Positions 7,449 through 62,775 of a stretch of DNA of 64,000 bases are shown piece after piece. Each line of letters starts with the position of its first letter. The stretch's first letter is position 1. The translations under genes were made by a program, and so were the position numbers. The stretch spans positions 27,792,347 through 27,856,346 of the forward strand of contig OX344753.2 of assembly GCA_947034885.2 (NCBI GenBank), written 5' to 3'. The notes under the pieces were generated by a model that ran no database searches, was not told the origin of the DNA, and was given only the letters and a program-made list of their open reading frames with translations. This stretch comes from Thuidium tamariscinum. Taxonomy: Eukaryota > Streptophyta > Bryopsida > Hypnales > Thuidiaceae.

Positions 7449-7499
7449 TGTCGTACGCGCAGTCTAGCAGAAAGCACCTTTATCACACCCAAACGTGAT

Positions 7500-8680: not shown

Positions 8681-8683
8681 ATC

Positions 8684-9205: not shown

Positions 9206-9244
9206 CCGTCCTTGCGCTCCGAGGCTGAAGTCCGTAAATACCTG

Positions 9245-9850: not shown

Positions 9851-9946
9851 GGTCGATCCGGGTGGATCCGGGTCTGGGTGTCCCCTCTTATCCGGCGTCG
9901 TGGACTTCTTCCGTTCCGGTTTCCGTTCCGGCTGACTGGCCAGCTT

Positions 9947-11280: not shown

Positions 11281-12400
11281 ATGTTTTCTCCCTCTTCGCC
11301 TCGAAGCCTGATGAGCTATCGAGATATCCGCACCAATGGTTTCCATCTCTCGATCAAAATTCTAGATAGGCGAGAGGCTTTGGTTTTTGTACAGAATAAT
11401 AAAGTAGTAGAAACAGCCTTTGCTGCGGCAAGTGGCTTGTATCGGATTCCAATCCGACCACCAAATGTATCTACTTTTGCTTTATCTTCTTCTTATAATA
11501 AAACTTCACTGTGGCATGGAAGACTGGGTCATCCAGGCTCTACTTTATTTCGTAAAATTCTTCCATGTGTTCTTGGTCATAATTTACAGCCAGCTGATGT
11601 AAATTCTATGACATTATGCCAAGCATGTGTACAAGGCAAATTGATTCCCATACCATCTCTATGGAATTTGCCTAGTGAATTACCACCAATGCTTTCGAGG
11701 CTACATGGTGATATTTGTGGTCCTATAACACCTATGTCTGGACCATTTTGATATTTTTTGATTTTGGTTGATGCCTCAGGCAGACAATCTCATGTTTCTC
11801 TACTTTCAACTCAAAATTTGGCTTTTTCTAATTTACTTTCGATGTTGATCCGATTCAAGGCTCATTTTCCCGATCATCCTATCAAGACACTTCGGATGGA
11901 TAATGCCCAAGAATTTCGGTCCAAATCTTTCGAAGATTACTGTATTGCCACTGGGATTGATTTGACATATTCAATTCCATATGAACATGCCCAAAATGGA
12001 TTGGCAGAGTCTTTTATCAAGCGCATTCAGCTTATAACAAGACCTTTATTATTACATGCAAATTTGCCTGCATACATGTAAGAACATGCAGTTCTCCATG
12101 CTACAACTCTAATTCGACTTCGTCCTTCATCCGTAGAGATTGCTTCTTCACAAGAGCTTCTTTCAAGACGTGTTCCAAATGTTTCTCATTTACGAGTATT
12201 TGGATGCCACGTTTGGGTTCCAAATGCAGAACCTCAACGTCATACTATTGGCACTCATCGCCAAGAAGGTATATATGTGGGATTTGACTCTCCAAGCATT
12301 ATTCGTTACATCAACCCTTCTACTGGTACATTACTCCGTGCACGTTTTGCCAATTGTCGATTTGAAGAAGATGTATTTCCATCTTTAAAAGGAGGAGAAT
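11281..12400 (+). pseudogene. copia integrase region (fossil)
   Basis: Resumes the copia polyprotein after the nested insertion. Visible integrase landmarks are the GAG-pre-integrase type SLWHGRLGHPGSTLF segment, LHGDICGPI and TLRMDNAQEF. The region is broken and is treated as part of the dead element. Confidence 0.75.
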
Positions 12401-38677: not shown

Positions 38678-40054
38678 TGTGAGCCCTCGAGATGGCACTT
38701 AGGACTCTGGGTCCATTTTTCGCAATTAAATAGCGAAAATTAGTTAAAATATTCAAGAAAAAGACATAAAAAGAGTGTTGAGGGAGTTTTGGTGTCAGTC
38801 TATGCCAAAATGGCAGAAAACCAACTTAGATGGTGGAAAATTCCTAATGCTAGAAATTTGAATCATTCTAAGTCTCCAAAGCAAGTATATGTGAAGAAAT
38901 AGTAATTCCGAGAGAAATAAGGAATAGAGAGTTAGTCAGTCCTAGCAATTGTCTGTGCAAAGTCAACCTTTTAAGGATGCACACGACATACTGACTAAGC
39001 TAAAAGAGTCTACTACAAGCGTGGGAGAGTTACCAGGGCTTAAGTTCAATTTTGGAACAAATTGGATTTAAAGGTAAAACCACTACAACGGATTTGGAGA
39101 ATTCGAATTTCACGAGACAAAAGATGGAGGATTGGAGATTGAAGACTACAGAGAGGTGTTCCAAGGGTAGGAACATGCCAGGAGCGAACAAGAATCAAAC
39201 AATTGTCCAAGATTCCCGGGCATCGGGAATTAAATTGTCCAATTGGGCAAAGTAATTCCAAATTGCTAAAATTAGAAAGGTGCAAGGTTGCATGGGACTT
39301 ACACCAAGAATCTAGGAGTGCCCTAGATGTTACCCAATTTATTTCGGATTTTTCCGAAATTCCACGTTGACTCCATGAGAAGTCAACCGCACATAGAAAT
39401 GTTCGTAAAATCATAGAAATTACGTATGATGCGGTAAAATCTCACTAAAAATTAGGATAGGTTTTTGTGTGCTTAATAAGCGCCCGGTCAAGTTTGAAGA
39501 CATTCCGACATTCCCAACTACCAAAACCGGCATCGACATCGAAATTCACTAGAAGTTACAAGTTGGCGGCGGGTTGACTGGCATATCAAGAGTGAATGAT
39601 GTCCGATTGTCGCAAATAAGGAGTCATTCCTTACTCTCACGGACATTCCTAACGACCCTGGCCTGACAGATTCATCAAAATGCGCAAATCCTAAAAGTTA
39701 GATTTTTGACTTTTAATTGGAGTTACTGTAATTCCAATTTGGGCGCGCAAATGGCCTAGGAGTGAGGGGTTAGGGGTCCCTTAGGCTAATTGGGGTCTTC
39801 TGAAGACAATGGCGCAGACGGTTTTCCGTTTCGAGTTGTTCCCTAAAAGATAGAGAGGGTCAGCTCTTAGTTTGACTTTTTAATCGTTAATTGCGGTTAA
39901 TTAGAAGTGATTTTGGAAATATCTCTTGGAAAATCAAAGATTGGATTTGGTCAAGATCTCTTTCTTGCGTAAAAAGCCATCTTTGGGCTAAAGAAAGACA
40001 ATTTTCGAAATGACTTTGGATTAATTTGCAAAATATCTACGTAAATTAGGGTTA

Positions 40055-42045
40055 CATTACAAAAAAAAGCAGGGTTTAAATGACTACGATATATGACTGC
40101 TACGCAGTCATTTAGGCCAAAAACGACTATGCCGTGACTTGGGGTCCAGAAGTCATTGTGGACAAGTCACGACCTACAGTGACTGCTACTATATTATCAC
40201 ATACTTGGATGAAAAAGGAATGACAAGGTCTACGTGGCACTTGTGATTTTCAGGCAATTGTTCAAAAATTGTGGGCAGTTGCCTATTCCACTCCAAAATT
40301 TTGGAGAAGTAGCACGACATCAGCAAATTCCAGAGTCACTTTGCAGTCACTATGGAGTCATTTGCAAGTTCGAGTACTGCTGACGTGGACATCCACGTCA
40401 GAGTCATGTGGAAGTCACTATAAAGTCATTATGTAGTCATTTTGATATTATGAAAAATCCGTACTTTGCTGACGTCAAAGTCACTGTGAAGTCATTATTT
40501 AGTCATTTTGCAGTTATAATGTAATTTGAGTATTGATGACGTGGAAATCCACATCAGAGTCACATAGAAGTCACTACAAAGTCATTATGTAGTCATTTTG
40601 GTATTATGAATAATTCGTACGTTGTTGATGTTAGAGTCACTGTGAAGTCATTATTTAGTCATTTTGCAGTTGTAATGTAGTCACTATACAAAGATGTTAA
40701 ATGCAATTTTTTTGTAGCAATGTGTGCAAAAGAAATATGTTAATAATTATATGGGAAGTAGTCACTCCACAGTCATATAAGAATACATTCAGAATTTTGC
40801 AACAATACACCATACACAATAATTTTGTATTGCACAATATATCACATACAATACACCATACACAATTCATACAATACAATACACCATATGCCATACACCA
40901 TTCACCATATACTGTACACCATACACCATATGCCATGCATTATTCCATGTATTTTAGTGTGTGAGTATGAATAGAAGAAATGTCAAGCCTTCTATAGAAG
41001 TAGGATAGTAGTTGGCAAGACAAAGCTTGTGGGATATGTGAAACACAGGAATTGCATTACAAATAATATTTTGAACCTCATTGAGGCATAGTATATTAAT
41101 TTTTTTCAAAAAACTTTGAACTAATGAAAGTTAGAAGATCATTGTCACTTTCACCTCCAAAATTTTTTTTTGGATTTTGAGCCTTAATTCAAAAATTATA
41201 GACAAGTTTGCTAGAAGGTTTGAAAAGAATTGACATAGAAAGAGTACTAGACTTTTGAATAGTTGTTTCGCAGTCACACGAAGTCATTTTGTAGTAGAAC
41301 CAGAGTGGTGATGTTGTCATTTTGTAGTAGAAACAAAGTGAAAAAATGTGACTTAATAATTACTATTGGGTCCTTTCTAAAGACCTTAGTGTATATTTAT
41401 TGATATTCTTTATATTTTAAATGTAAATTATATGAAGTGTTCAAAACTAGTGCAATGACAATGGCACACATTTCTAGAAGTATTGGTGGCATATTGATAG
41501 GAATTTAAATAAATCATAGAAATGGACCCTAAAGAAAAAAAATATTATACACGAATAAAGAAAAAGACCACCAACAATGCATCATTTCACAATAAAATTA
41601 TAAAACAAAAGAAGTCTTGTATTCTAAAAAAAGATGTTTAAGAAGAAATGAATAAGATAAACCTAGGGGAAGCACTCCATGTATTTATATTGTTAGCAAA
41701 CCACATGTAGTAAAGACTTTAGACCCTCTACTTCTTGAATATTGATGCAATGGTCAACAAAATGTATTTTCAATAAGTATTTGAGTTGGACTACATGTCA
41801 ATATGAGTCATTTCCCTTCATTTCTCAATCTTCTTCAAAGTCGTATTATATATTATTTGAAGTGAAAGTTTTCAACAATAGAAATCTAAGATTATTATCA
41901 ATCAAAGTTGACATTTATAAGTTGAATTTACCATTAGGAATAATTCTGGCTCTAAAAAAGGCTGCAAGTTTTGTACCCCCATGGTGCAAATCTATATATA
42001 CATATGTATACATATATACATACATATATATATATATATACACAC

Positions 42046-42118
<73 letters not shown>

Positions 42119-43808
42119 TGTATACATATACATATATATATATTTATTTATTTTTTAATAATTTTGAATCTAACAAGGTATTACTAGTCCCGTGTCAACA
42201 CTACATGAGATTGATAATTGATAAATATTTTTAAAAATATTTTAATTTCTTTATCAATTTTTTCATTTTTTCTTTTGGAACTGCACCATGGAGGTGCTCA
42301 AAATGAATTCTTAATAGCCTCTTTTAGGGTTGAAATTTTTCCTAATGAGTTTATTAAAAAATTAATAAGAGATTAAAAACTTATTTTATTGCATATGATA
42401 TACAAAATCTCCTAAGAATTATCTACTTAAGAAAAAAATCAGGAATAAAAAATTAGAAAGAATAAAAGATAACCTAAGGTATGCAACTCTTGTATTATAT
42501 ATGTATATATGTATGTATGTATGTATATGTATATATATGTCTATATATATAATAGTGTGTATGTGTGCAAAAGTCATTGGTGTTAAAACAATTGCTTTTG
42601 TAAAATTATATTGAATTTATAAAGATCAAGTTAAAAAAAGACCAAATTATAAAAAATTAAATGTAGAAAATTTTGGAGAGTGTACTTATTAATAAAAATT
42701 CACAATGTATATGAAGAATTGAAACACCTATGAATAATTTTAAAAATTTGACTACAAGAAATCCCACCTAGTTAATATTAAATTTTTTTAAAAAATCTAA
42801 AATATTGGATACCTTATTCTATGATACATATTTTAGAAAAACTCATATAATTAGTTTTTAAATACTTTAATAGTCCTCAAAAAATATTAATTTTATGTAC
42901 GTAATTACATTTTTGAATTTCTTGTTAAAAATGATATAAGAATTTTCTACATTTAAACAAATTACATCCCTTGAGATTGGACTAAAGTGCATTTATTTAT
43001 AAGTGATTGTAAGTAGGGCCATATACTATAGGAGTTGCACACCCAAGAAGATAACTTATTTACTTAAGAAAGATATTAGAGTGTGAGTGTTGAAAGATTC
43101 TAAAGGGCCGTTGCAAGAAACATAGTGCATTTTTTTAGAGCATTTTAGCATTAAACACTTTTTTCAACAAATTTTCCTATCTGTTTTTCCTACAAAAAAA
43201 TCTTAATTTGGCTTAAAAAAACATTGAAGTCATTTTGAAGTCACACAATAGTCATAGACAGTGGCGTTGTAGTCATAAAAAAAGATTGAAGTCCACGTCA
43301 GCAAATTGTCCTATCCATTTTTTCTACAAAAAAAATCTTGATTTGGCTTAAAAAACATTTAAGTCATTTTGAAGTCACACAATAGTCATAGACAGTGGCA
43401 TTGTAGTCATAAAAAAAGACTGAAGTCCACGTTAGCAAATTGTCTTATTCATTTTTTTTACAAAAATCTTGATTTGGCTAAAAAAAAACATTTAAGTCAT
43501 TTTGGAGTCACACAATAGTCATGTGCAGTCATTGTTAATGACTTCAATATCCATATTGGATGCCTCTCACTTCCCTTTAATATTGTCAATGTCATCTTGA
43601 ATGAATAGTTGTAGTAAATGTCACACTTCATCACTGCTTCATCCGCAAGTCGTTCAAAATGACTGAAAAATGACTTAAACACTTAGATAGTGCAACCTTG
43701 GTGCAATTATAGGATTTGTAGTCATTCTTTAGTTGTTCCGGACATCTAGTCATTTTGCAATTTGCAGTCACTTCGCGCAGTCATTTAGGACAGGGTTTTT
43801 TTGTAGTG
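40055..43808 (+). mobile_element. CACTA (En/Spm) non-autonomous transposon inside LTR copy B
   Basis: Left end CATTACAAAAAAAAGCAGGG; right end on the other strand CACTACAAAAAAACCCTGTC. The 3-bp duplication TTA lies on both sides (40052-40054 and 43809-43811). Subterminal regions at both ends are packed with AAATGACT / AGTCATTT / GCAGTCA words, as CACTA elements carry for transposase binding. No transposase ORF is present. The empty site is preserved in LTR copy C, where a single TTA is found (58766-58768). Confidence 0.85.
41990..42150. repeat. TA/CA microsatellite inside the CACTA element
   Basis: Long 'tatatacatata', '(ca)n' and '(ta)n' runs. Open frames through it (Tyr-Ile-His repeats) are artefacts. 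Confidence 0.8.
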
Positions 43809-43997
43809 TTAATTCCAAAATATTTTGGGTTAAGATCTTGGATTTGATTTGGCCAAGATTTCTTTGACAAAATGGGGATGTTTTTAGAAATTTCCACCAT
43901 TAAACAACTAATATTTTGGAATTACATTAGGGTAGTTTAGGGTAGGAAGTAACAAAGTGTTTTCACCGGCAATTACCGAGAGGGGCCCGGCCACGGG

Positions 43998-44005
43998 TAT
44001 ATAAG
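43998..44005 (+). promoter_or_regulatory. TATA box of solo LTR copy B
   Basis: TATATAAG within 'cgggtatataagggccccc'. Its distance from the LTR start, with the CACTA element excluded, is about 1,563 bases. The matching box in copy C lies 1,564 bases from its start. Conserved position and sequence support an LTR promoter. Confidence 0.6.
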
Positions 44006-44699
44006 GGCCCCCCTCGAGGTTGTCAGTACCCTTATTTCTCGCACCGACACTTTGTTTCCTCATTCTTGTGCTACCGACATAGTCGGAGCACTTCTTGAAC
44101 CAAAATTCTTGGCCAAGTCTTGTTTAAGTTTTATTGTTGAACATTGAAGGATTAGGGCCCTTCAAGTGATTCTTTCTCTTCTTTCTATTGTGAAAAGGCT
44201 AAGCCTTAACCTTGGATACAACTACCTCGTGGAAATTTCATGTATTGAGTACCAAAGTTCGGTTTAAACACTGTCATGTGTACCTCCTTTGGTGGCAAAA
44301 TCTTGAAATACTAAGACATTCTAAGAATTTAAAGTGAAAGTTCGGTTAAAACACTGTCATGTGTACCTCTTTTTACGATTAAAGTTCTTAAAATACTATT
44401 GTGGAATCCGCATACGGCGGAGCTATAAATCTCCCAATTGTCTACTAATCCAGAGAAAGGGAAGTGAGGCAAGGCCCGAACCATTCCAATACTCCATGCT
44501 TACAAAAGCTGGCAATCAAAATCCTTGATGCCTAAGGAGTTTTCATCACCCCCTTGCTTCCATACCAGTTCTCTTGGGCTATGCTTATAAGCAACTCAGT
44601 TAAGGATTAGCCTAGTACCAAACACTAACCCAACCATTATTTGATCAAACAGAATATAGTTTATCACATTATTTAGGACCAAAATACCCCAATTTAGTT

Positions 44700-45060
44700 C
44701 CAAAAGGACCAGCATACCGATCTAGTTAAGGCAGACCAGCATACCGATCCAGTTAAGGCACCAGCATACCGATCAGTCAAGGCACCAGCGTACCGATCAG
44801 TCAAGGCACCAGCGTACCGATCAGTCAAGGCAGGGCGTTCAGAACCCCCCTCCCCGAGCAGTCACGCCCTGCCATGTGGCGAGCGCCGACGTGTCTAGTT
44901 GCGGGGGGTTAGCCCAACCACGCTCCGCCACGTGGCGCCGGCAGGATGGGTGGGGGCTCGGTGGACAGAGCCCAGAGCGGACAGAGCCTGGGGAGAGAGC
45001 CCGGAGCGGACAGAGCCTGGGGAGGGAGCTCGGTGGACAAACTGTGGGGGACTCCAACAC
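44700..45060 (+). repeat. Minisatellite and GC-rich variable region in LTR copy B
   Basis: About five tandem copies of a ~26 bp unit 'accagc(a/g)taccgatcagtcaaggc' (44700-44830), followed by a GC-rich stretch with repeats of 'cggacagagcctggggag'. Copies A (37270-37480) and C (57680-57960) have different GC-rich repeat strings at the same place, so this is a fast-changing segment of the LTR. Confidence 0.6.
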
Positions 45061-46167
45061 CCCCCCACACTACAACAAAATTCGACATTCTAAAACTCAC
45101 AACTAAGAACACTCTAACTAAAATTTTGTTGTTGTAATCATTCAATTTTTGGTCAAATAAAATAGAGTTGTGAAGGAAACTCACAACTCCCGATTTTAAT
45201 TCTCCACCAAGAATTTAACAATTCCAACAACAAAGAATCTTGGTCAAACTTCCTCTAACACAAAACTCCATAGCCACCATTCTTCTACAAAAATTGCAAA
45301 ACATCTTGGATGTTAAATGAAGGAGGGAAGAAATTAGGAAGATTAAGGCCAACCGTGGGGGATTTAGGATTAAAAAATTCAAATCCAAGGAATATTACTA
45401 TTGCACGAGGTTCTTTATTCCGTAAGAATTGACCTTTGGAATTAAAAATCATTTAAAAAGAATCCTACTATTGAGATTTATTCTTGTTCTTTGGGAATGT
45501 TCTACATTCTTTGGTAGTTAGTTATTAATTAGATTCTTAGAAGATTTGGATTTTGTTGGTTTTGTTTTATTAGGCCTAATAAGCCAAAGGGGAAACCAAC
45601 AAATTGACAACTAATTTCTTCGCAAATTAAGGCAAATTTAAAAATGAATTAGATTTGAAAAGATTTGATGATAGTTTTTTGATTAAAATATTCTAATAAG
45701 CCAAAAAGAAACAAACAAATTGACAACCAATTTCTTTAAGATTAAAATTAATTAGATTTGAAAAGATTTCATGATAGTTTTTTTTATTAAAATATTTTAA
45801 TAAGCCAAAAGAAACAAAACAAATTGACAACCAATTTCTTTAGGATTAAAATAATTTCAAAACTAATTGGATTTGGAAAAGATTTGAAGAAGAAATTCCA
45901 TTCAAATTAATTTAATTCAATTGGAATTCGGTGGAATATCGAATTAGAATTAAAGTAGACAACAAAAGTAGGTAGCTATTAGATTTTTGATGATTTCTTA
46001 GAATAGAACATTGACCCACTAGGTAGACTAATTAAATTGCAGTATTTCTTAATTACCGGGAATTAGGAATTAACAGAATTACGCAATTAAAATAGCACTA
46101 CATAACATTTAATTTCCTTTTTAACCAGAATTAATTGACCAACAACGTGAGAATTATTATGGATTAG

Positions 46168-46263
46168 ATGGAGAGCCGGGATGATTTCGATGGCGAGGTC
46201 GTAGGGGAATATTTACACATGATGATGTTTGACGACGGGACCATGGAGATTTACGCAGAAGAG
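46168..46263 (+). CDS. LTR-embedded conserved short exon, copy B
   Basis: 32 codons beginning MESRDDFDGEVVGEY and ending MEIYAEE, followed by a GTAAAC donor-like site. ATG-GAT-TAG lies directly upstream. Compared with copy C, eight of nine differences are synonymous. Placed about 3.7 kb into the LTR, downstream of the TATA box, so it would be in the transcript leader. No homologous protein family is recognised. It may be an LTR-encoded leader peptide or the first exon of a spliced product. Confidence 0.45.
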
Positions 46264-46573
46264 GTAAACCGCTCGCATTTGATTTTCATTCTCGTTATTT
46301 TATTGTTAAGTTTCTTTTTACCAAATGCTTAGCATTAGATTTAGACAAAACTATAAGATAGAATAGAGTAGGATTGCTTGGCTGAATTTAGAATAGAATA
46401 GAAAGAATTATAACCACGAAATTAGATTAGAAACACTCAAAAGACGTGACTAAAAGAGTTCATTGCTTGGAAGGCTTTCTTTTTTACCCAATTAGAAAGA
46501 AAACTCAATTAGACACAAAACCCGTGTGAAAAACTCTTAGCTTGAGGGTGGAGTTAGGAGCGCTCACAGTGAC

Positions 46574-47130
46574 TTCTTTGGAAACTTTCTTACAAAATAG
46601 GAAAATTGATTACCTTTGTGGAAATATAATTTTTATTTCAATACATGACCCAATGCAAATGTTACTCCACGAAAAGCTCCAATTTATTTCCGGTGGGAAG
46701 TACAATAAATCCACAGAATTTTGAAATTATATTTGAAATTTTTTTTTCTTATAGATTACATTTTCTTCTATGTGAAAAGCTTTGATTCATTCCGCTTAGA
46801 ATAGGTATATGAATGTTATGAACAATCTTGTTTTGGGGGAAGTTTAAGCATCTTTTTGAAAAAATAACTTGTAGGATGCATTTCTAATAGCAATTTTGAC
46901 AATTTTTTAGAGAAAATTGTTTGACAAGCTTAAATTGGCTTACTCAAACAGTCTCACCATCGCAATGAATGTGTTTTGATTCCATCTTAGAGGTTTAGGG
47001 TTTAGTTTTCTTTTCAATCTCGGATCTACTTCTACTTAATAATTTTTAAAAGAATGAAAATCAAACATTTTTGTTTTAATTTTTTTTCCTAGACTACCAA
47101 CTGAATTTTTCTACCCAAAAAATTGGAAAA
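46574..47130 (+). mobile_element. Right piece of the TTAA element split by solo LTR copy B
   Basis: Continues the element begun at 38599: 'tatgaatgttatgaacaatcttgttttgggg' and 'ggatctacttctacttaataattttt' match 34731-35660 in order. The final TIR is missing because the tandem fold-back block starts here. Confidence 0.5.
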
Positions 47131-47145
47131 ATGAAAGCTCAACTA

Positions 47146-48236
47146 TTTTTAATTTGAAATAAAGGATTTAGGCAATCAAAAAAATGTAGAAAAATCCCCA
47201 AGAGTTCAATGATTCTAAAAATTTCCACATAGGTGTTTCTTATCATCTTAAACATACATAAAAAATCTTGAAAAATTTCACACATCCAATCAAAAGTTGT
47301 GCCTAATTTTGTCAACTGTGACTAATGTGACTAATACCCCACAAGGGCATTAGTCACATTAGTCACAATTTGCCAAATCTCCCTAATTACATGCCTTCTC
47401 CAATTTGGAATTGTCCCAAAACTTCCCAACCCTTGGAAAAGGTTCCAAAAAATCACTTCATGAAAAAAAATTGGAAAAATAAGAGCCCAACCATTTTCAA
47501 TTTGAAATAAAGGGTTTAGGCAATCAAAAAATTGTAGAAAAATCCCAAAGTGTCCAATGATTCTAAAAAATTCCACATAGTTGCTTCTTACCATCTTAAG
47601 CATACGTAAAAAATTTTGCAAAATTTCACACATCCAATCAAAATTTGTGCCTAATTTTGTCAATTGTGACTAATGTGACTAATACCCCCCAAGGGCATTA
47701 GTCACATTAGTCACAATTTGCCCAAATCTCCCTAATTACGTGCCTTCTCCAATTTTGAATTGTCCCAAAACTTACCAATACTTGGAAAAGGTCCCAACAA
47801 AGCACTTCATGAAAAAAAATTGGGAAAATAAAAGCCCAACTATTTTCAATTTGAAATAATGAGTTAAATCAATAAAACAATTGTAGAAAAATACCCAAGT
47901 ATCCAATGATCCTAGAAACTTCCACATAGTTGCTTCTTCCCATTTTAAACATATATAGAAAGTCTTGAAAGTTTTTACAAACCCAATCATAAGTTGCGCC
48001 CAACTTAATGAATTGTGACTAATACCCTTTGAGGGCATTAGTCACATTAGTCACAGTTGACAAAATTAGGCACAAATTTTGATTGGATGTGTGAAATTTT
48101 GCAAATTTTTTTACGTGTGCTTAAGATGGTAAGAAGCAACTATGTGGAAGTTTCTAGGATCATTGGATACTTGGGTATTTTTCTACAATTGTTTTATTGA
48201 TTTAACTCATTATTTCAAATTGAAAATAGTTGCAGG
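47146..48236. repeat. ~347 bp tandem repeat with palindromic GTGACTAAT core and terminal fold-back
   Basis: Three units at a spacing of about 347 bases, each containing 'gtgactaatgtgactaataccc' followed at once by its complement 'gggcattagtcacattagtcac'. The last part (about 48050-48236) is an inverted copy of the third unit ('attttgattggatgtgtgaaattttgcaaa', 'aactatgtggaag'). No ORF of note, and the unit is too long for a CRISPR-type array. Confidence 0.65.
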
Positions 48237-49063
48237 GTTGCTAGTAGGCGAGCAGGGGAGCAGGAGCCTATGAGCCTGTGAGCCTGTGAGCGGGAAATTT
48301 ATTTTGAAAAAAATTTGAGTTGACCACCTATGATCGTGGATTTTAGGGTAACAAAAATTAGAGTTTAGTACCTATAATCGTGGACTTTCAACGTTTAGGC
48401 GACGAAGAAGATATAATGTCTATTTCAAAGATGTGACTACAGAAGTCACTTTTTGTTTTCTTCTTCATTTTCTCTTTGCATACACCTATGATCATGGACA
48501 TTGTATACACAAGAGTAGGGATATAAAATCTAATTGTGAGAATCAAAGCACTTAGGTTTATATTGTCGATTAGCTTTAATTTAGAATATTAAATCTTCTT
48601 TATATAGAGATAAATTAAGGAATGTGAAGGCAAAATGAAAACAGCAAAGAACATCTCAAAAATACCCAAACCTTGAAATCACAGAAGGCATTGGAAATAC
48701 TCTAATTTGATGCATCTCATTCACTAAATAAGTCAATCTAGGTGTTGTTGAAAGAAGATTGATTTTGAGATGTATAATGAAGAGAAAGAATTGGATGGTC
48801 AATATGTAAGGGTTTGTCGGATCCGACGGAATTGTACGTGTTGCCTTCTTGCCTCAAAATTTTATTTTATTTTTTTTGTTGGTGTAGGTTTTGGGAGAAC
48901 TAGCAAGAGCCATTGCCTTAGATGTTTTCAAAACAAAAATCAAATAAATAGAAAGAGAAATTTGAGACTTCCAGATGTAGCCATAAAACACACAAATCCA
49001 ATCCAAATCCAATCCAAATAATACACAATAGTAAGATTCAAAAGATTAGTCAATCTCAAGAAT
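48237..49063. other. Spacer: short direct repeats and the gene 3' flank
   Basis: Starts with 'gagcctgtgagcctgtgagcggg', then three loose copies of 'acctat(g/a)atc(g/a)tgga' (48330-48500). Contains a GTCGGATCCGAC palindrome at 48816-48827. Otherwise it is the likely 3' flank of the minus-strand gene that follows. Confidence 0.4.
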
Positions 49064-52000
49064 CTAAGTGGTTGTGGACTCAGTCACTGAATCTGACCCT
49101 GTAGAGGACTCTGAGGACTCCCGTCCCTCAGATGCAGAAGCATCTATAAACTGTAAGACATTGAGGGCGTAAGTGTCTTTGCGTCGTTTTGATTTGGAAC
49201 AACCAAAATTTGCAAAGGCACTTGCCATCTGCTCTGCATACGGTGGTAGCTTGAAAGGCTTCTCTGGACTAACGACAAGCCTTTGATTTTGTTCCATGAC
49301 CTCTTTCAAGATCAATCTACAACCTCTGCAAAAATTGAAGACATTATATTAGTCTTTGCAAATGTGATATGAAGAAAAATAATAAAGAATGAAAGAAGTT
49401 TCCACTTACTTACTGGATTTTCCCTTGCGAACGAACTTGCGAGGCACAATAGGCGCGTCTTGCACATCCACTGTCAAGTCCACTGTTGTCTCGGGGGTTG
49501 GAGCCACTGCCGTTAAGGGTAATGACTTCTTCATGGGCTTCAAAATGGCATTGAAAACATCTTTGTCCCCCTCAAAAGCTAGAATGTTGCGGCCAGTTCC
49601 TCTACAAGCCAAAATGCAAGCACCTAGGGTATTCATGTAAAAAAAATGTGTTAGAGAGGTGACAAAATTGTTACAATGACATAGAAGTGTGAAATATTCA
49701 AACTGAAGACAAACCTGTGGATGCCGTGCAGTCCACAATGACATCGCCTTCATTGCTTGTGGCTTCAAGGAGGAGGGTAAAGAACCTCGGATCTTTTTCA
49801 CGTGGGCCTCTCCATGGCTTCTTCCCATTCATGGAGATGTCATCTGCATGCATGTAATTCATGAGCATGTCATCATTCTCGACATCCACCCCAGCCTTCT
49901 TCATCATCTCAGTATGCTTGAAAACAAATTTGGATTTGTCTTTTGCTTTGAGGTCCTTGACAAGGAGAGTGACTCCAAACTTCTGTGTCTGTACTCTGTA
50001 ACACATATGATACAAGAACATTAGAGATCAATGAACAAAATTTTAAAAGAAAATAGGTGACAAAAACTAAAGCATCTGTGTTGAAATTACCGTCTTTCTG
50101 GTGTCCGTTGGCGAGGTGAGATGCATGCGGTTCATGCCTAGCTAATCTTTCTTCTTCTTGAAGTCAAATGCTTCGCAAACTCCTGCTAGATCTTCCCTGG
50201 ATGCAATGCTGAAGGAGTGAAACACAATGATGCATCCATCATTGTGCAGATGCTCTACTGCAAAGGTGCATGCGGATTGCAAAGCATTAGCTTCTAAATC
50301 CGCATTCCAATTTGGCACCTCCTTTGATGTAAGAGAAATGCCTGGCACAGGCAAGTTCTCTGGACAGTCAATAAAGATGACATCAACACCAACCTTGGAA
50401 TTTGCCACACCTTCAAACATGCGAGTTTTGCCCACTGCCATCTGCAAAAGCACATTTCAATATAATTGCAATATATTAGTATTGCATACTTTTCTACCTT
50501 TCAAAGCAGATTCATAATATTTAGTATAACATTAGGAATTTTAGGGTCACTTCAATAAAAGTCTGAGCTAAAAAAGAAATTACATTTGTCAATATGTTCA
50601 ACTATTTCTAGAGAAAACAAAGCCATATGAATGTAGGTAATGTTGAGTAGGAAAATACAAGACAAAATATCGGTTTAGGTGATTCCGTTGGATCCAATGG
50701 AATTGTAAATTCTGCCTTGTTGTCTTACTAATTTTTTCAAATACAAAAATTCTTCAATACAAAATATAATTGTGGAGCAGAGATAAATTTTTCTTCAATG
50801 TTTCATTATAGCAACTTTGGTACATAGCATTCATATCATTGACAATAAGTAAAATAAATTCTAGCAAAGATGTTCGAAGAGATCACCTTAGCCAAGTACT
50901 TCAAGACCTCGTCATAGGCACCCTGTCTTTTGTCCTCCATATCCATGGCGATGTCTTCAATGCAAATATTAAGGATTAAATCCTCAGTCTCTTGCACATC
51001 ATCATCGGAGAGGACCATGGCTTGTGTCACTCGTGAAATGACATCTTCAGTGAGCTGTGAGATGGTGACTTTCCTTGGTACTCCGCCTTGTGTTTGATCC
51101 ACAGTGGAGGAAGCTAAGACTTGCCCTTTCTCTTCCACTTTCTTCTTTCCCTTGGCCTTAGTCTTTTCTTCCTTCTCCTTCCGGCTTCTTTCTCCGCCTT
51201 CTCGGCCTCTTTCTCCGCCTTCTTTGCTGATTTCTCCGCTTGCTTTTTCTCTTTGGCCTCTACGATGAGTTGATTCTTCACTTCTTTCTTTTGGTCTAGT
51301 GCATCCCTCTTGTTGATGGCCCTCTTCCTGGCATCATCATCCATGCCGATGAACTCGTCAACATCCTCCAAATCTACTACCCCCTTGCCCTCCAATGATG
51401 CCCTGAGCTAAACCTCTGAATTATGGGTGAACTCCAGTGTGCAGTCCAAGTACCAACCCGCACCAGAGAGATGAGCAGTAGTGTAGGTGCGCAATTGATG
51501 TGGGCTGAACATGCATGAACTTGAGTTGCGGTCGAGGAAGCGTGGAAGGAATTGAGGGAGATCCAGTTTTGCAATGGCCCCCTTTGCTTCAAGCTCTAAC
51601 TGGAAGTACCTGTAAATCAATCATAATGAGTTATATGGAGCATTGTTCAATCTCAAAATGAAAGAGTAGGAGCAAAATATATCATAGAAGTTGTAAATTG
51701 CAGTCCTTTGAAGGGTGGAAAAGTAGCCAAGACAATACAAATTCAAGATTTATAATGAAGTAGAAGATGCTATAGAATTTCTATAATTACAAAGTATACA
51801 ATGATACCACCAAATTCCAAGTAGTAAAGAAAATGACATACCGATAAAGGACTCTGCGCACCACAGCGTTAGAGCCTTCGTGAGATGAAAATGTTTGGCC
51901 CTTCTTGAAGTACTTCGAGCCCTTGAAGTAATTCATGAAGCCATGTTCCCAAATCTTCTGCCTCCATCCTTCAATGTACTCTGGTAGCCGCTCTGGTTCC

Positions 52001-53965
52001 GGTTTTACGTTGTAGTCGATGGAAAGGTTGTCTTCCTTTACGATTTTGTCGAAGAACTCCACGACAGCATCTTCTATCTGAAAAATGGGATATAGTCAAA
52101 AAGTTCAGTTGTATTACCAAATATTTTAATGAAATCAACTACCAAGTGTTTTATTATTGAATGAAAGGAATTAGGTTGTGCAAACTTCTAGAATATAAAG
52201 TACCTATAATATTTACGAAAATATATTCTCACTAATAATTTGAGAAACTCATAAACCATTACTACTTAATTATTTATTTTTTGTTTATTTATTTTGAAGT
52301 CATCATAGAGGATCAGGAAATCCCCTAATGCCAAAAGCACTCTTGAAAAGATATTGAACACTTACCCCAGCGTACCAAGTGCACTTCACCAGAAATTGAG
52401 GAAGTAAGAGTTCGGAGACAGGTTTTGGTGGCAACTTCCTTGATTCGCGTGAAAGAGTAGAAGAGTTCCACCATTGAAGTATCTTTGTCTTGTGCTTTGC
52501 AGTCATCTTGCAGGTGGAGACCAACTGGAGCTTCTCCAAAGTCATTTCAGGCACCTCGTAATTGCCCCAATGCTTTTCCACCTACAATAAGACTTCAGTT
52601 AGTTTTTCAATATGGATTTGAACTATCTTTTGAACAAATGAAGTGAAGTTGGTGACTAATTATTGAATTGTACCTCTTTGAGGAAGTCCTCTCTGTTTGC
52701 TGGGTTGGCCACCGCTAGCAATTTAAACATCTTCACCATGGCCGCCTTTGTTCGTTCCCTTGCTCCCAACCTCATTGCTTCGACTGCCTGTAGTGGTACA
52801 CTTCCAATCTCTTGTGTAGCCTCCATGTACCTTCTTACTGTTGCATCTGCAGCTTGTGAAATTTCTTGCTGCACAAAAAACCCAATTAGGTGTGAAGTGA
52901 ATATGGACAATGAATATTTTTTAAAATAAAAATATATTTATCAAAAACAAATTGAAGGAGCTTACCCGGAAGATGAAAGATGTGAAGACCTCGAGTTGAA
53001 TTGAATACCATTTCTTAGTGACCTTGTTCTCAAGGCACCTCTTCCTCTCTGCAGGCCTAAGTAAGGTTGCAAACTTTGCTATGGGTAGCATTCCGTACTT
53101 CTGAATTTGGTACAAGGTGTGTACCAAGTTCGTCTTCATGTGGGAGTCTTCTACAGACCTGCAAACCATTCAATGCGATATAAGCCAAAGATCTAAACTA
53201 CCTCTAAGCAAGTGCAGCATTCTAATTGAATATTTCTGTGAAAAATAAAAACAGTTGGAAAGAAAGAACTTACTTGTTTACGTCATGCATGACTTGCATG
53301 ACAAGTTCATTGCGCCCTCTCGTATCCAACATAATAGAGTCCACACTGCAGTGTTTGTTTGAGTGCTTGGAAATGTAATTCATCCAAGCAACTCGTCTGT
53401 GGTTCCCATCGCAAATGAAGATCTTCAAGTTCTTCAAGAACTGAAGCTCTGGCTTGGACTCGAACTTCTGTTTGAAGACTTCATTCTTCTCCTTCCAAAT
53501 GGGGTCCCAACTGTCCATCTCTTGTTGGGTGAACTCTTCAGTGTTCCCATCTTCGTTTGTAGCTGACACATAGAATACCGCAGCTCCATCTTGGTATCCT
53601 CTTGCTGCAAACCCTTGTTCAAGCTTTGCGATATCAGATGCCAATGCCGGTCTGACCATTGGCATTACCACAAGTCTGCACAACGGAATATGCATACGAA
53701 ATACCTCCTCGGGCTTCATCCGAAGTTGTCCCAAAAGCTTCACAACATCACCTTTTTGAATGTGCCGGAGTTCTTTTTCTGACATCACCTTCTCCTCCTC
53801 ACGGTCTTGAATGACAATCTCCATGTCCTCCTCATCTTCCTCTCCCTCTCCTTTTCCTTCTCCTATTCCTTCTCCTTGTTCAATCTCGGGCTGTTTTGAG
53901 ATTTGAGAGTTTGGAATTCCGAAGATGGTTTCCTCTTCCACGGTTTTGGTAGGGGAGATGTCCAT
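49064..53965 (-). CDS. ParB-like / N4-N6 DNA methyltransferase fusion gene, ten exons
   Basis: Exons, all with GT-AG borders on the minus strand: 53965-53274, 53158-52966, 52868-52674, 52581-52366, 52077-51842, 51609-50887, 50441-50091, 49988(or 49995)-49715, 49623-49410, 49325-49064. Junction phases agree except for one slip inside exon 6. The conceptual product is about 1,120 aa: an acidic N-terminus, a ParB/sulfiredoxin-like domain (about residues 90-230), a mid region of unknown fold, a Lys/Glu-rich linker, and a C-terminal beta-order DNA methylase. The start ATG (MDISPTKTVEEETIFGIPNS) is the first in the frame, about 220 bases after the stop of the neighbour. Exon 6 has an in-frame TAG (51408-51410) and a one-base phase slip near 51190; exon 7 has a TAG (50142-50144). 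The copy may be decaying, or the assembly may be imperfect. The domain calls are strong; activity is not shown. Confidence 0.75.
49410..50441 (-). other. Exons 7-9: permuted (beta-order) N4/N6 DNA methyltransferase domain
   Basis: Motif IV region comes first: GVDVIFIDCPENLPVPG, where active enzymes have (D/S/N)PP(Y/F/W) and this copy has DCPE. It is followed by ALQSACTFAVEHLHNDGCII (the 'lk.gG.l.v' strand). The SAM-binding side follows: KKPWRGPREKDPRFFTLLL then EGDVIVDCTASTGG, CRGTGRNILAFEGDKD. This matches 'kP..ll..li..t..gd.VlDpf.GsG...a....R...g.E.d'. Order IV before I is the beta class of bacterial DNA methyltransferases. Both catalytic signatures are altered, so the domain may have lost or changed its activity. 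Confidence 0.7.
50887..51609 (-). other. Exon 6: linker with coiled, Lys/Glu-rich segment
   Basis: Starts YFQLELEAKGAIAKLDLPQF, includes a Cys/His-poor folded-looking part, an in-frame TAG at 51408-51410, then an acidic part (VVDLEDVDEFIGMDDDARKR). A charged repeat (KKQAEKSAKKAEKEAEKAEK) follows, probably helical. The reading frame shifts near 51190 and resumes as EEKGQVLASSTVDQTQGG. It separates the ParB-like and methylase parts. Confidence 0.55.
53274..53965 (-). other. Exon 1: ParB/sulfiredoxin-like domain
   Basis: Family pattern seen in order: IPLCRLVVMPMVRPALASDI (the strand-helix start, where ParB has a 'np..R' region), then IAKLEQGFAARGYQDGAAVF (ParB 'l..si...G..qp..v'), then IFICDGNHRRVAWMNYI, which matches the ParB signature 'i.dG.hR..A'. 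In bacteria and phages this fold binds DNA and CTP or has nuclease activity, and it is often fused to adenine or cytosine methylases. Here it is preceded by a Glu-rich segment (EGIGEGKGEGEEDEEDMEIV). Binding or catalytic ability is inference. Confidence 0.7.
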
Positions 53966-55202
53966 CTAGGAGTTCAAATTTCAGTGTAAAAAATTCAATA
54001 TTCACAGTAAACAAGAGCAATAGAAATTGCAGTTAAGAAGTTGGTACATTTAAAAGAAAATGCTTTACTTCAAGGGAAAAATCGTACTTGCAAAGGGAGG
54101 TTCAAGCACATTCAAAACACTAAAGTAACCTCAGTGAGGGAAGACCAAGGTATGCCGTTTGCTACTTTTATGATAACAAATCCAACTAATCTATGATCTG
54201 CACATCATCATCCTCATCAGATTCTGAGCTAAGGATGATAACTTCATCAGACTGAAATAAGTCCATGTTCACCACACTCTCCCCTGTATACAAGTCAAAA
54301 AACTCAACACTACTAGAATTTGAAAGCTCCATGTCAGAAGGGCAGTCCATCTCAGAACTGAAAGATGAGAACCACGGACCACCACCCCTATTTCCACTGA
54401 GTACACTTGTTTCAAATGCATCAACAGCTCGCTCTGCAGCATCCATGACGTCATCGAAACTCACCAAGTTTTCATCCACATTGCCTTGGTGCGTGGAGAG
54501 GGTTGCAACAGGTTGTGGAGATTTCTGGGGCTCTGAGGATCCACCAAGGCACCAACTTCCATAGAAAGAGCACTTTGCACTTCAGGACCTTGATTCTTTG
54601 TGGATGAAACCTTCTGTCGTTTGCCCCTTCCTTGGCCACTCTAGACAATGTAGTGCAACAATTTACAATCAATCTTAAAGTCATAATATCATGCAAATTA
54701 AATTTGGCCATTATCCAAATGTATATTATGTCATGAAATTCAAAATAAATAGATTTGATGTTATAGGTAGTACCACAATGATTAAGCTATTTCAATCTTA
54801 AGAAAATTAGGACACTTCTTCAAAAAATTGAATGGATGAGGAATGGCATACTTGTTGCTGCAATTGATCACTGCCTTTAGCAACGCTGGTACCTCCAGTA
54901 GTGGCCTAATCCAAAAGTAATCAAGATCAGAACCTATAGAAAATAGGATTGAAAGATGAAAAGACTTTCAAAAAGTAAAGTAGAAAAATTTGAACTTCAA
55001 TTGAAGGCTTGTAACAAACAAGGCCAGGACTGAAAATATCAACGGCTATATGGAGCTCAAATGATAATAGACATCTATGAAAGGAAACATGGGAGATCGT
55101 GAGTTAAATGATAGAAATGAAGTAAATTGTACAGAAGACTAATTAAGTACTGCCAAAGTCAATTACCCTTGACCTGATTAATTGTGAGAAGAATGCAGAT
55201 TC

Positions 55203-55312
55203 AAAAAAATGGTGAGAATCTGGGGTACCACGAGCTGAGTCAGAAAACCAAGTCGGATCAGACTTGGTTTTCTGACTCAGCTCGTGGTACCCCAGATTCT
55301 CACCATTTTTTT
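55203..55312. repeat. Perfect 52-bp-arm hairpin around GTCGGATCAGAC
   Basis: The arm 'atggtgagaatctggggtac' to 'aaaaccaagtc' is mirrored without mismatch after a 6-base centre. It lies in the first visible intron of the split gene. Shares GGGGTACCACGAG and the central GTCGGATC-GAC with hairpins at 62688 and 62985. Could be a very young fold-back MITE or a small-RNA precursor. Confidence 0.75.
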
Positions 55313-56525
55313 GTCAATGAACGCAAATTTTTTCAAGAAGTGTATACAAATCTTACCATTTGCTCGCTTTCATCAATAACTTCAGAGGTAAGTGGTGAAG
55401 ACAGTTAGTTTTTTGCAAATATTTGAAACTCATTGCGAAATCAATGTCCCCGAATAGTGAGTTATCAACGAGAGTGCTAAGTGCAAACGTCAGCAACAAA
55501 TCCTGATGCTTCAAGTTCTTGACGAAATCAAGTACAGTCAAGTCTACCCACTACAAAAGAAGAGGGGTATAAATGACTGTAGAGGGATGACTCAGAAATG
55601 ACTAAATGTCCGGTTTGACTAAATAGTGACTAGTACCTTTGTAATTGCACCAACCCAGCTAAATTTACATAGTCCTAGTCATTTTTCAGTCATTTTTCAG
55701 TCATGAGTGTGACTAGAAGATGAAGACATGATAGAAAACGAAATTCATCTACATTTTTTCATTCAAATTGCCATCAATAAAAGCACAAAAGGAAGGGAAA
55801 AATCAGCATGGATGCTAGAGTCATTAATGAGTATGACATAGTTATTGATTGTAACTTAATTTCACTACTTCACGACTCAAAAATGACTAAAGGGTTACAA
55901 AAAGGCTAAATTTTCATATTTTAAGCCAAGGATGAGCAGGGCAGCTTGCTGACGTGGATGGAAATTGTTCTAAGACTACTAGAATGTGACTGCGCTTTAC
56001 TACTATGTGACTTTAAAATGACTGCCAAGTCTTTTGTAGGGTCATCTTGTAATTTTTTGCTCTAAAAATGGGCACGATATGACAAACATTGTAGAGCTGA
56101 AAATAATTTAACAACCCTATTTTATACAAGAAAAAATGGTCTAATTTATTTTTCAAGTCTAAAAATAATTCTTTATTGAAAGTTCATTTTTCTTCATTAT
56201 TGATGCAATGGTCATTGTGAGCGCTCCTAACTCCACCCTCGAGCTAAGAGTTTTTCACACGGGTCTTGTGTCTAATTGAGTTTTCTTTCTAATTGGGTGA
56301 AAAAGAAAGCCTTCTAAGCAATGAACTCTTTTAGTCACGTTTTAAAGTGTCCTTTAATCTAAGTTGGGGTTGTAAATTTATCTATTCTATTCTAAAAGTC
56401 AACCAAACAATCCTACTCTACTCTATTCTGGCAATTGATATTTCCTAAATCTAATTCCAAGCATTTGGCAAAAAGAAGCTTAATAGTAAAACAATGAGAA
56501 TGAAAATCAAATGTGAGCGGTTTAC

Positions 56526-56621
56526 CTCTTTTGCGTAAATCTCCATAGTCCCGTCGTCGAACATCATCATGTGCAAATACTCTCCCACAACCTCGCCATC
56601 GAAATCATCCCGACTCTCCAT
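56526..56621 (-). CDS. LTR-embedded conserved short exon, copy C
   Basis: Exactly 96 nt like copies A and B, beginning MESRDDFDGEVVGEY and ending MEIYAKE before a GTAAAC donor-like site. Preceded by ATG-GAT-TAG. One amino-acid difference from copy B against eight silent differences. Confidence 0.45.
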
Positions 56622-58571
56622 CTAATCCATAATAATTCTCACGGTTGTTGGTCAATTAATTTTATCCTGCTTAAAAAGAACTAAATGTTATGTAGTGTTA
56701 ATTGAATTGCGTAATTCCGATAATTCCTAAGTTCCCGGTAATTAGGAAATACTGCAATTTAATTAGTCTACCAAAATTGTTAAGGTTCTAAAGAATTCAA
56801 TGGAAATCTAATAATTCACTATTTGTTGTTTTAGTTTTTTTATTTAATCCTAAAATTAAAATCCCAATTGCATTTAAAATAATTTGGATGGAAATTCCCT
56901 TCAAATCTTTTCAAATCCAATTGATTTTCGAAATTGTTTTAATTCTAACGAAATTAGTTGTCAATTTGTTTGTTTCCCTTTTGGCCTATTAGAATATTTT
57001 AATAAAAAAAACTATCATCAAATCTTTTCAAATCTAATTAATTTTAAATTTGCATTAGTTTGTAAGAAAATTAGTTGTCAATTTGTTTGTTTCCCTTTTG
57101 GCCTATTAGAATATTTTAATAAAAAAAACTATCATCAAATCTTTTCAAATCTAATTAATTTTAAATTTGCATTAGTTTGTAAGGAAATTAGTTGTCAATT
57201 TGTTGGTTTCCTTTTTGGCTTATTAGGCCTAATAAAACAAAACCAACAAAATCCAAACCTTCTAAGAATCTAATTAAGAACTACCGACCAAAGAATGTAG
57301 AACATACTCCCTAGAATAAATGCCAATTCAATAGTAAGATTCTAAAACAATTAGTTTTAAAAGGGTGTGGGGTCAATGTTGAGAATAAAGAATTAGTTTT
57401 CAATAGTAAGATTCTTAAGAAATTGATTTTTTAATGGGTAATCCTTCACAAATCCTTCCTCAACCTTCTTTCTTCCATCCTTGCGCTCTCATTTCATTCT
57501 AATGCTTCGTTGCGAGTTTTGTAGAGAGTTTTGGCTATGGCGGTTGAGAGATGCTTATGAAGGTGATGAGGATTTTTTGATACCCCAAGAATAGATTTTT
57601 ATCAAAATTTGACAAAATGGTTTGTGGCTCCAACTGCCAAACCAACTTGATTTTGGAAAAAATCAATTTTTGTGAGTATTGACACTTACTGTCTGCCTGG
57701 CTCCGAACTGGCTTACTGCCTGGCTCCGAACTGCTACTGCCTGGCTCCGAACTGCTGCTGCCTGGCTCCGAACTGGCCGCCCCTTCCCCCACGTGGCGAG
57801 GCGCGGTTGGGGGACCCCTTCCCGCTTGCCCCGTCACCCCTACCTCCGAACTGGCTGCTGCCTAGCTCTCCGAACTGGCTTCTGCCTAGGCTCCGAACTG
57901 GCTTGCTGCTTGGGCTCTCCGAACTGGCTTGCTTGCCTAATTCTTTGGCTTATAAAGGTGGGTTAGGCTTCCCTTATTTTCTAATTTTTGTCAAATAATG
58001 GGGATATTTGATGAAATTATGCCACCCACTTAGTGGGTAAAGGAAAGTGCTTAGTTCAATGGGAGTTTAACGCAATGGATGTTTAACCTTAATTGTACAA
58101 GGTTTTACACTTTAATAATTCCTAGTTCTCAGAGGGTCAAAGCTTCGCCGTATCTTGTTGGTTTCGTAACACGTAGTCCGTCAATGGTATTTTGGGAATT
58201 TTATTCGCAAAAGGAGGTACACATGACAGTGTTTAACCGAACTTTCATTTTAAATTCTCAAAATTTCTTAGTATTTCAAAATCTTGCTGCCAAAGGAAGT
58301 ACACATGACAGTGTTTAAACCGAACTTTGGTGCTTAATGTTGAAATTTCACACACGTTATCCAAGCGAAATGTTGATGCTAAGTTCCAAGTGCCAAGTGA
58401 GAAATGAAAGAAAGATAGTTGAAGGGGCCCTAAGCCTTCACAACTTCAAAACAATACAAAACTTGGCCAAAGTCTTTTGGTCCAAGTGGTGCTCCAACTA
58501 TGTTGGTAGCACGTGGAAAGAACAAAGTGTCGGTATCAGAAATGAGGGTACTGGCAACCTCGAGGGGGGCC

Positions 58572-58579
58572 CTTATATA
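58572..58579 (-). promoter_or_regulatory. TATA box of solo LTR copy C
   Basis: Reads TATATAAG on the minus strand, 1,564 bases from the LTR start at 60143, the same offset as in copy B. Confidence 0.6.
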
Positions 58580-60519
58580 CCCGTGGCTGGGCCCCTCTCG
58601 GTAATTGCCGGTGAAAACACTTTGTTACTTTCTATCCTAAACTACCCTAATGTAATTCCAAAATATTAGTTGTTTAATGGTGGAAATTTCTAAAAACATC
58701 CCCATTTTGTCAAAGAAATCTTGGCCAAATCAAATCCAAGATCTTAACCCAAAATATTTTGGAATTAACTCTAATCTACGTAGATATTTTGCAAATTAAT
58801 CCAAAGTCATTTCGAAAATTGTCTTTCTTTAGCCCAAAGATGGCTTTTTACACAAGAAAGAGATCTTGACCAAATCCAATCTTTGATTTTCCAAGAGATA
58901 TTTCCAAAATCACTTCTAATTAACTGCAATTAACGATTAAAAAGTCAAACTAAGAGCTGACCCTCTCTATCTTTTAGGGAACAACTCGAAACGAAAAATC
59001 GTCTGCGCCATTGTCTTCAGAAGACCCCAATTAGCCTAAGGGACCCCTTACCCCTCACTCCTAGGCCATTTGCGCGCCCAAATTGGAATTACGGTAATTC
59101 CAATTAAAAGTCAAAAATCTAACTTTTAGGATTTGCGCATTTTGATGAATCTGTCAGGCCAGGGTTGTTAGGAATGTCCGTGAGAGTAAGGAATGACTCC
59201 TTATTTGCGACAATCGGACATCATTCGCTCCTGATATGCCGGTCAACCCGCCGCCAACTTGTAACTTCCAGTGAATTTCGATGTCGATGCCGGTTTTGGT
59301 AGTTGGGAATGCTGGAATGTCTTCAAACTTGACCGGGCGCTTATTAAGCACACAAAAACCTATCCTAATTTTTAGTGAGATTTTACCGCATCATACGTAA
59401 TTTCTATGATTTTACGAACATTTCTATGTGCGGTTGACTTCCCATGGAGTCAACGTGGAATTTCGGAAAAATCCGAAATAAATTGGGTAACATCTAGGGT
59501 ACTCCTAGATTCTTGGTGTAAGTCCCACGCCACCTTGCACCTTTCTAATTTTAGTAATTTTGGAATTACATTGCCCAATTGGACAATCTAATTCCCGATG
59601 CCCGAGAATCTTGGACAATTGTTTGATTCTTATTCGCTCCTGGCATGCTCCTACCCTTGGAACACCTCTTTGTAGTCTTCAATCTCCAATCCTCCATCTT
59701 TTGTCTTGTGAACTTTGAACTCTCCAAATCCATTGTAGTGGTTTTACCTTTAAATCTAATTTATTCCAAAATTGAACTTAAGCCCTGGTAACTCTCCCAC
59801 GTTCGTAGTAGACTCTTTTAGCTTAGTCAGTATGTCTTATGCATCCTTAAAAGGTTGACTTTGCACAGACATTCGCTAGGACTGACTAACTCTCTATTCC
59901 TTATTTCTCTCGGAATTACTAATTCTTCACATATACTTGCTTTGGAGACTTAGAATGATTCAAATTTCTAGTATTAGGAATTTTCCACCATCTAAGTTGG
60001 TTTTCCACCATTTTGGCATAGATTGACACCAAAACTCCCTCAACACTCTTTTTATGTCTTTTTCTTGAATATTTTGACTAATTTTCGCCATTTAATCGCG
60101 AAAAATGGACCCAAAGTCCTGAGTGCCATCTCGAGGGCTCACAGTCATCTAAATGAATCCTCAAGAAATATTTGAATTTTTAATTGTGCCATTTTAGTTC
60201 ATTTCTCAATTTATTCTAGAAATCATTTCATACATTATTTGAATTAGGCATATAGTGTATGGTGTATGGTGTATGATGCTGGTTTGAATTTTTGAATTTT
60301 GAAAAAAAAAATTAAATTTTTTTTTTCCAAAAAACTTCAGTATGTACTAAAGAGCAAAAAAATGATTTAAAATAATATTTTAAAAATATTTAATAATTAA
60401 TTAAAATTAATAAAAAAACAGTATTTTCTGACGTGGCAGTCGCTCGACCACATCAGCATCGCGTTCCCAGAGTTCCCAATGCGTTCCCAACGTTTGGAAA
60501 CTCACAGTCTTGTAAACTA

Positions 60520-62587: not shown

Positions 62588-62687
62588 CAAGCTTGAAGTG
62601 CCACTCAGCACCCTCCAACTTCATACTGACTGAGTGTTAACTGAAGAACAGGATTGCTAAACATAAAAAAAAATTGCCGATTCCGTG

Positions 62688-62775
62688 GGTACCACGAGGC
62701 ACCGCATAGAAGTAAGTCGGATCCGACGGGGTTTTTTGGCGTGCCTCGTGGTACCCCAAAATCTCAACATTTCAA
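62688..62775. repeat. Imperfect hairpin around GTCGGATCCGAC
   Basis: Left 'gtgggtaccacgaggcacc' and right 'gcctcgtggtaccccaaaat' pair around GTCGGATCCGAC (62716-62727). Same outer motif (GGGTACCACGAG) as the perfect hairpin at 55203, but the inner arms differ. Confidence 0.6.

Follow-up and report, generated by a model that had tools for sequence, protein, structure and literature searches.

A stretch of 64,000 nucleotides from the moss Thuidium tamariscinum (assembly GCA_947034885.2, contig OX344753.2, positions 27,792,347 to 27,856,346; hereafter the window) carries on its minus strand, from 53965 to 49064, a real, spliced, plant-type gene of ten exons, and by sequence comparison exons 7–9 of this gene encode a relative of the beta-class N6/N4 DNA methyltransferases. 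The best explanation of the locus, with a probability of roughly 0.5, is that a long-established, intron-rich family of plant nuclear genes is represented here by a decayed copy. The ancestor of such a family would have been a beta-class DNA methyltransferase of prokaryotic or phage type, possibly bearing a ParB-like module at its N-terminus, to which a middle region several hundred residues long was added. Intact members would most likely have given up DNA methylation and would work as pseudo-methyltransferases, scaffolds that bind DNA or nucleotides.

The structure of the gene is directly visible. All nine introns are GT-AG and span 84–445 nucleotides (nt), and phase is kept across every one of them, two in-frame TAG codons and one frame change in the coding exons excepted. 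The guanine plus cytosine (G+C) content is 0.45–0.49 in the exons versus 0.26–0.33 in the introns. The open frame of exon 1 measures 231 codons from stop to stop, against a maximum of 203 in 300 single-base shuffles of positions 48001–55000, and the ten-exon model would give a protein of ~1,118 residues. The acceptor of exon 8 at 49989 was picked by phase, with 49996 as the alternative. Further, the ATG of exon 1 sits directly after a TAG that is usable as a 3' splice site, so exons further upstream are possible. The spliced gene with at least nine introns that had been proposed in a first-pass annotation, made from the letters alone, is thus borne out by the exon count, the GT-AG introns, the phase and the G+C contrast, and the motifs quoted there (ICDGNHRRVAW, DCPE, DCTAST and CRGTGRNILAFEGD) are present at the places given.

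The spliced exon 7–9 protein matches seven PHROG methyltransferase families (E 7e-6 to 3.6e-3), DpnA in the PDB (E 4.6e-4), PF01555 (E 8.5e-4, 19.8 bits) and the CcrM model (E 9.9e-4). In control searches of PHROGs, the exact reverse of this protein matched none of the families, exon 7 alone gave no match, and exon 8 alone found just two families of unknown function at E 0.2; the library signal therefore depends on the splice junction, as neither exon gives a methyltransferase match singly. A tblastn search of 50,697 phage records returned 481 records at E ≤10, all below 60% identity, and among 60 evenly sampled rows of these, 50 were annotated as methyltransferases and 10 were hypothetical or carried no annotation. 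The best-covering phage matches run co-linearly over residues 19–234 of the query. The corresponding plasmid search gave 44 records at E ≤10, with coverage of the query never exceeding 80%.

Profile comparisons point the same way. These used 11 stand-alone phage enzymes and a set of phage ParB-methyltransferases seeded by UVD33307.1 of Staphylococcus phage Lacachita (Pfam ParB_N 2.6e-6, N6_N4_Mtase 1.7e-29) plus relatives; 43 loci were hand-picked from 80 viral loci, and the 41 that were stop-free in translation, together with locus L012, make up 42 rows. With hhalign, the exon 7–9 protein reached 97% against the stand-alone enzymes and 14% against the methyltransferase part of the phage fusions, scores attained by 0 of 60 column shuffles in either case. 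With hmmsearch, it took the top rank among 1,007 targets, of which 1,000 were shuffles, for both methyltransferase profiles of the phage ParB-methyltransferases. The earlier assignment of exons 7–9 to the beta class is upheld by the PHROG, PF01555 and DpnA matches and by the hhalign result.

The order of motifs in the exon 7–9 protein, IV - X - I, is that of the beta class, and the acidic residues of motif I and the following strand (D955 and E978) are retained. The motifs themselves are rewritten. Motif IV is defined as (D/N/S)PP(Y/F/W), and in active enzymes its aromatic residue (Y, F or W) stacks against the flipped base; motif I is defined as FxGxG. The window protein has DCPE at motif IV, where the beta class reads DPPY, and DCTASTG at motif I, where the beta class reads DPFxGSG, the exon 8/9 junction reading DCTASTG-ACILACRGTG; neither sequence fits its definition. 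That both catalytic motifs are altered had been pointed out previously, and the alteration of motif IV extends to the relatives of the gene.

Protein searches, in each of which up to 8,000 candidates were scored, found three relatives, all from maidenhair ferns (Adiantum). P0001 (GOP47_0024647) of A. capillus-veneris was found at E 2.2e-9, with 31% identity in an alignment that covers 12% of the query. P0002 (L7F22_023745) and P0003 (L7F22_045304) of A. nelumboides were found by a profile search that included P0001, and their E-values rest chiefly on that sequence. A search with residues 76–600 found nothing at E 10 and missed P0001 itself, which limits the sensitivity that can be ascribed to these searches. 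The Adiantum proteins, for which no function is named, are alike with the window protein in the N-terminal region, the middle and motif IV, which align co-linearly; they are unlike it in sequence (~20–32% identity) and in that each model is partial. Motif IV reads DFPT, DFPT and DFPI in the three proteins, none of which fits the definition, and P0002, the sole Adiantum protein to show motif I, has EMGCSTA there, which likewise departs from it. With P0002 and P0001 together, the motif-I stretch falls on the same phage-template columns, at a low probability of 5% yet above 60 of 60 shuffles. A PDB search with a four-row profile gave no match, and an AlphaFold2 model of P0002 from a three-row alignment had a predicted local distance difference test (pLDDT) score of 32.6. 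Since none of the four proteins has the aromatic residue of motif IV, and since both proteins with a visible motif I have it in rewritten form, intact members of the family are most likely not methyltransferases, as far as conserved residues can indicate.

The present copy of the gene is broken in three places. Exon 6 holds an in-frame TAG at 51410–51408 and a frame change near 51186–51183, inside a lysine/glutamate-rich repeat, and exon 7 holds a second in-frame TAG at 50144–50142. A codon score derived from the remaining exons favors the first frame of exon 6 over three stretches up to 51186 (+0.14, +0.40 and +0.41 bits per codon); past that point it favors the shifted frame (+0.38 bits per codon). 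Because of this switch the frame change is taken to be real in the present sequence. Interrupted at these three points, the gene probably yields no complete protein in this copy. The faults are few, the splice sites are sound and the exons are otherwise open, which suggests that the loss of the gene was recent.

Those same open exons and sound splice sites, along with the G+C contrast, would also be expected of a gene that works in the plant, with the stops and the frame change being assembly or sequencing errors or spliced out unseen. This alternative is improbable given three faults, two of which are TAG codons, and the poor prospects of removing them. An 86-nt intron within exon 6 would remove both of its faults, but the segment has 51% G+C and is coding-like in the first frame, so the rescue intron is rejected as implausible. 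Skipping the end of exon 7 by way of a weak upstream donor would cost a stretch that aligns with the phage enzymes. Decoding of TAG as an amino acid was set aside by argument, the gene's own final codon being TAG.

Several observations weigh against a decayed member of a methyltransferase-derived family. An assembly error is possible for every one of the three faults. The PF01555 score of 19.8 lies under the gathering cut-off of 26.7, and the CcrM score of 18.1 lies far under its cut-off of 830. The Adiantum proteins taken singly give no methyltransferase match in Pfam or PHROGs, and on the phage methyltransferase profiles P0002 takes places 52 and 18 among the 1,007 targets, under shuffles. 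Additionally, the three Adiantum models are incomplete, each in a different place, and no intact member was seen among the family proteins found.

The N-terminal part of the protein is a more difficult case. A ParB domain had been read into exon 1 on the basis of ICDGNHRRVAW, and the odds of such a relationship, as far as the alignments can indicate, now appear about even. Exon 1 gives nothing significant in Pfam, PHROGs, NCBIfam or the PDB (two chance-level PDB matches at E 0.13 and 0.29), no PF02195 match and no phage tblastn match. The support comes from hhalign: an alignment of exon 1, P0001 and P0003 reaches 27.2 on a narrow phage ParB profile, where the maximum among 200 shuffles is 21.4 (0/200), and 21.5 on a broader profile of 24 ParB domains, a score reached by 1 of 150 shuffles. 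The alignment places GNHRR onto the GxxR motif of ParB, in the ParB register. Its extent is limited to residues 160–218, which comprise the GxxR-like site and a stretch that looks helical, and the blocks expected to precede this site in ParB, which the first-pass annotation had counted as present, are not recovered.

It is nearly as probable, at a little short of an even chance, that exons 7–9 are methyltransferase-derived and exon 1 is not related to ParB, GNHRR being a chance resemblance and the fusion therefore absent. The lack of library and phage tblastn matches fits this alternative, as does the behavior of exon 1 alone, whose hhalign score is reached by 11 of 100 shuffles on the narrow profile and 44 of 100 on the broad one. 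For P0003 alone the counts are 2 and 24 of 100, and for exon 1 paired with P0003 they are 0 and 2 of 100. Wrong-domain controls score 12.8–19.1, not far under the ParB scores. P0003 reads EGNHH at the site, so the arginine of GNHR is not kept, and P0001 is without that stretch. Searched by hmmsearch with the 42 phage ParB domains, exon 1 ranks 446th and P0003 200th of 724 listed targets, amid shuffles; because of these ranks the odds for ParB were lowered from somewhat better than even. A chance resemblance is harder to reconcile with an exon 1 and Adiantum alignment that tops 200 of 200 (narrow) and 149 of 150 (broad) shuffles in the ParB register, and with a domain order that is the same as in the phage ParB-methyltransferases. 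The AlphaFold2 model of exon 1, from a three-row alignment, reaches a pLDDT of 34.3.

The window is rich in repeats, the present copy is broken, and A. nelumboides has at least two of the proteins on two contigs, all of which would suit a gene carried by a mobile element, be it a large transposon or what is left of an integrated virus, with gene copies that spread and decay along with the element. Such an origin is unlikely. A gene lying inside one element with 6-kb inverted ends was considered, but the inverted repeats resolve into two independent insertions resembling long terminal repeat (LTR) elements (Table 1); their separate 5-bp duplications, GTCAT and GTCAC, mean that the flanking repeats do not bound a gene-carrying element. 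Within the window, the element ends yielded no single target-site duplication shared around the gene. No transposase- or capsid-like gene was recognized in the subset of open reading frames tested, and nine introns would be unusual for cargo.

Table 1. Exons, candidate motifs and neighboring LTR-like elements, in window positions.
Feature	Position	Strand	Remarks
Exon 1 (residues 1–230)	53274..53965	-	Open frame, donor GTAAGT; acidic N-terminus, then ParB-like candidate region
ParB-like candidate stretch (residues 160–218)	53312..53488	-	hhalign against shuffles
ICDGNHRRVAW, GxxR-like site (exon 1)	53416-53384	-	
Exon 2	52966..53158	-	Frame, splice sites
Exon 3	52674..52868	-	Frame, splice sites
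Exon 4	52366..52581	-	Frame, splice sites
Exon 5	51842..52077	-	Frame, splice sites
Exon 6	50887..51609	-	Frames and codon score; holds TAG and frame change
Exon 7	50091..50441	-	Methyltransferase-like domain begins; motif IV position DCPE 50369-50358; in-frame TAG
Exon 8	49715..49988	-	Motif X-like PREKDPRFFTLLLE 49805-49764; DCTAST 49733-49716 at exon end
Exon 9	49410..49623	-	Remainder of motif-I region, CRGTGRNILAFEGD; acidic residue E978 at 49573-49571
Exon 10	49064..49325	-	Final codon TAG 49066-49064
LTR-like element	56216..60143	+	Neighbor, outside gene; TG...CA ends, GTCAT both sides, ~3.9 kb, undisturbed
LTR-like element, second copy	38678..46568	-	Neighbor; TG...CA ends, inserted sequence within, GTCAC both sides
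LTR-like element, third, partial match	35795 onward	+	

Other features of the window lie around the gene. Immediately downstream of it is a 349-bp tandem repeat of 2.6 copies (47117–48232), adjoined by an inverted partial copy, and upstream is a near-perfect 112-bp palindrome (55202–55313), with similar sequence at 62667–62772. Also upstream, on the minus strand at 54186–54640, are open frames with an apparent frame change, whose acidic end contains two hydrophobic cores (VIILSSESDEDDDVQIID) and resembles SUMO-interaction motifs; positions 54189–54581 have no Pfam match. A Copia remnant with RVT_2, gag pre-integrase and SH3 domains occupies 6092–14529 (plus strand), and pieces resembling a long interspersed nuclear element, with DUF4283 and zf-RVT, lie on the minus strand at 3564–4862 and 18667–19494. 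An open frame of 401 codons at the window edge (3–1205, plus strand), acidic then basic and with no Pfam match at E 0.1, may represent the 3' portion of a host gene. Searches of the window with Rfam and ARAGORN were negative.

A phage or bacterial origin of the family is plausible, and follows from the domain type rather than from any donor. Two short patterns near motif IV, taken from the four-protein alignment, gave 37 matches on genome contigs, 0 of them confirmed, and the scan of viral contigs with two such patterns gave 51 matches, of which one was confirmed; it is a viral methyltransferase that stands alone and reads DCPY at motif IV. The negatives are limited by the use of only these two patterns. 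The capture of a prokaryotic or viral gene put forward earlier would fit the domain type, and the part in DNA or chromatin marking suggested with it is conjecture for this gene. For the intact members, a DNA- or nucleotide-binding scaffold may be proposed by analogy, as ParB-fold proteins bind cytidine, adenosine or guanosine triphosphate according to a 2025 survey (PMC12704722). A more elaborate history, which is speculative and on balance rather doubtful, would have a phage- or bacteria-type ParB-methyltransferase enter, in the distant past, the lineage ancestral to ferns or to some larger group of plants, lose its catalytic motifs, gain nine introns and the long middle, and persist as a pseudo-methyltransferase bound to DNA and gated by nucleotides, a chromatin factor of ParB type in the plant nucleus. 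Such a factor would have been overlooked because the curated ParB and methyltransferase models miss it at their cut-offs.

Compared with known systems, the window protein shares with the beta-class N6/N4 DNA methyltransferases (PF01555; DpnA, MboIIA, CcrM and gp030 of Lactococcus phage AM1) the motif order IV-X-I, the co-linear residues 19–234 and the acidic residues of motif I and the next strand. It differs from them in reading DCPE for DPPY and DCTASTG for DPFxGSG, in scoring under the curated cut-offs, and in belonging to a spliced, plant-type gene with several hundred extra residues. With the phage ParB-methyltransferase of Lacachita (PMC10286716) it shares a candidate ParB-like site at the N-terminus and a methyltransferase at the C-terminus. 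The phage protein has 499 residues and both Pfam domains above cut-off, whereas the plant protein has ~1,118 residues, introns in its gene and a ParB similarity that is not significant by hmmsearch. In the 2025 survey, ParB folds joined to an N6_N4 methyltransferase are a pattern of phages, and a search of EukProt with PF02195 at the gathering cut-off found sulfiredoxin to be the commonest eukaryotic form (PMC12704722). A ParB-methylase of Bacillus cereus is described with nicking activity (PMC5512222). A plant ParB-like fold other than sulfiredoxin would, if true, stand out against that survey, which would miss the present protein, as it has no PF02195 match. No description of a plant ParB-methyltransferase fusion was found in the titles and abstract openings of the open-licence literature among the matches listed.

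Bacterial-type amino-methyltransferases are rare in eukaryotes. Enzymes making N4-methylcytosine are reported to have been acquired independently in Marchantia and in bdelloid rotifers (PMC12344493; PMC8566409), and the bdelloid N4CMT is described as an amino-methyltransferase acquired from bacteria (PMC8885841). Compared by description, MpDN4MT1 of Marchantia and N4CMT are eukaryotic amino-methyltransferases of bacterial acquisition, a class to which the gene discussed here may also belong, and are unlike it in being reported active, against the rewritten motifs of the Thuidium gene and its relatives. If true, a family that combines this domain type with rewritten catalytic motifs would represent a further outcome of such acquisitions, in which the protein is retained minus its chemistry.

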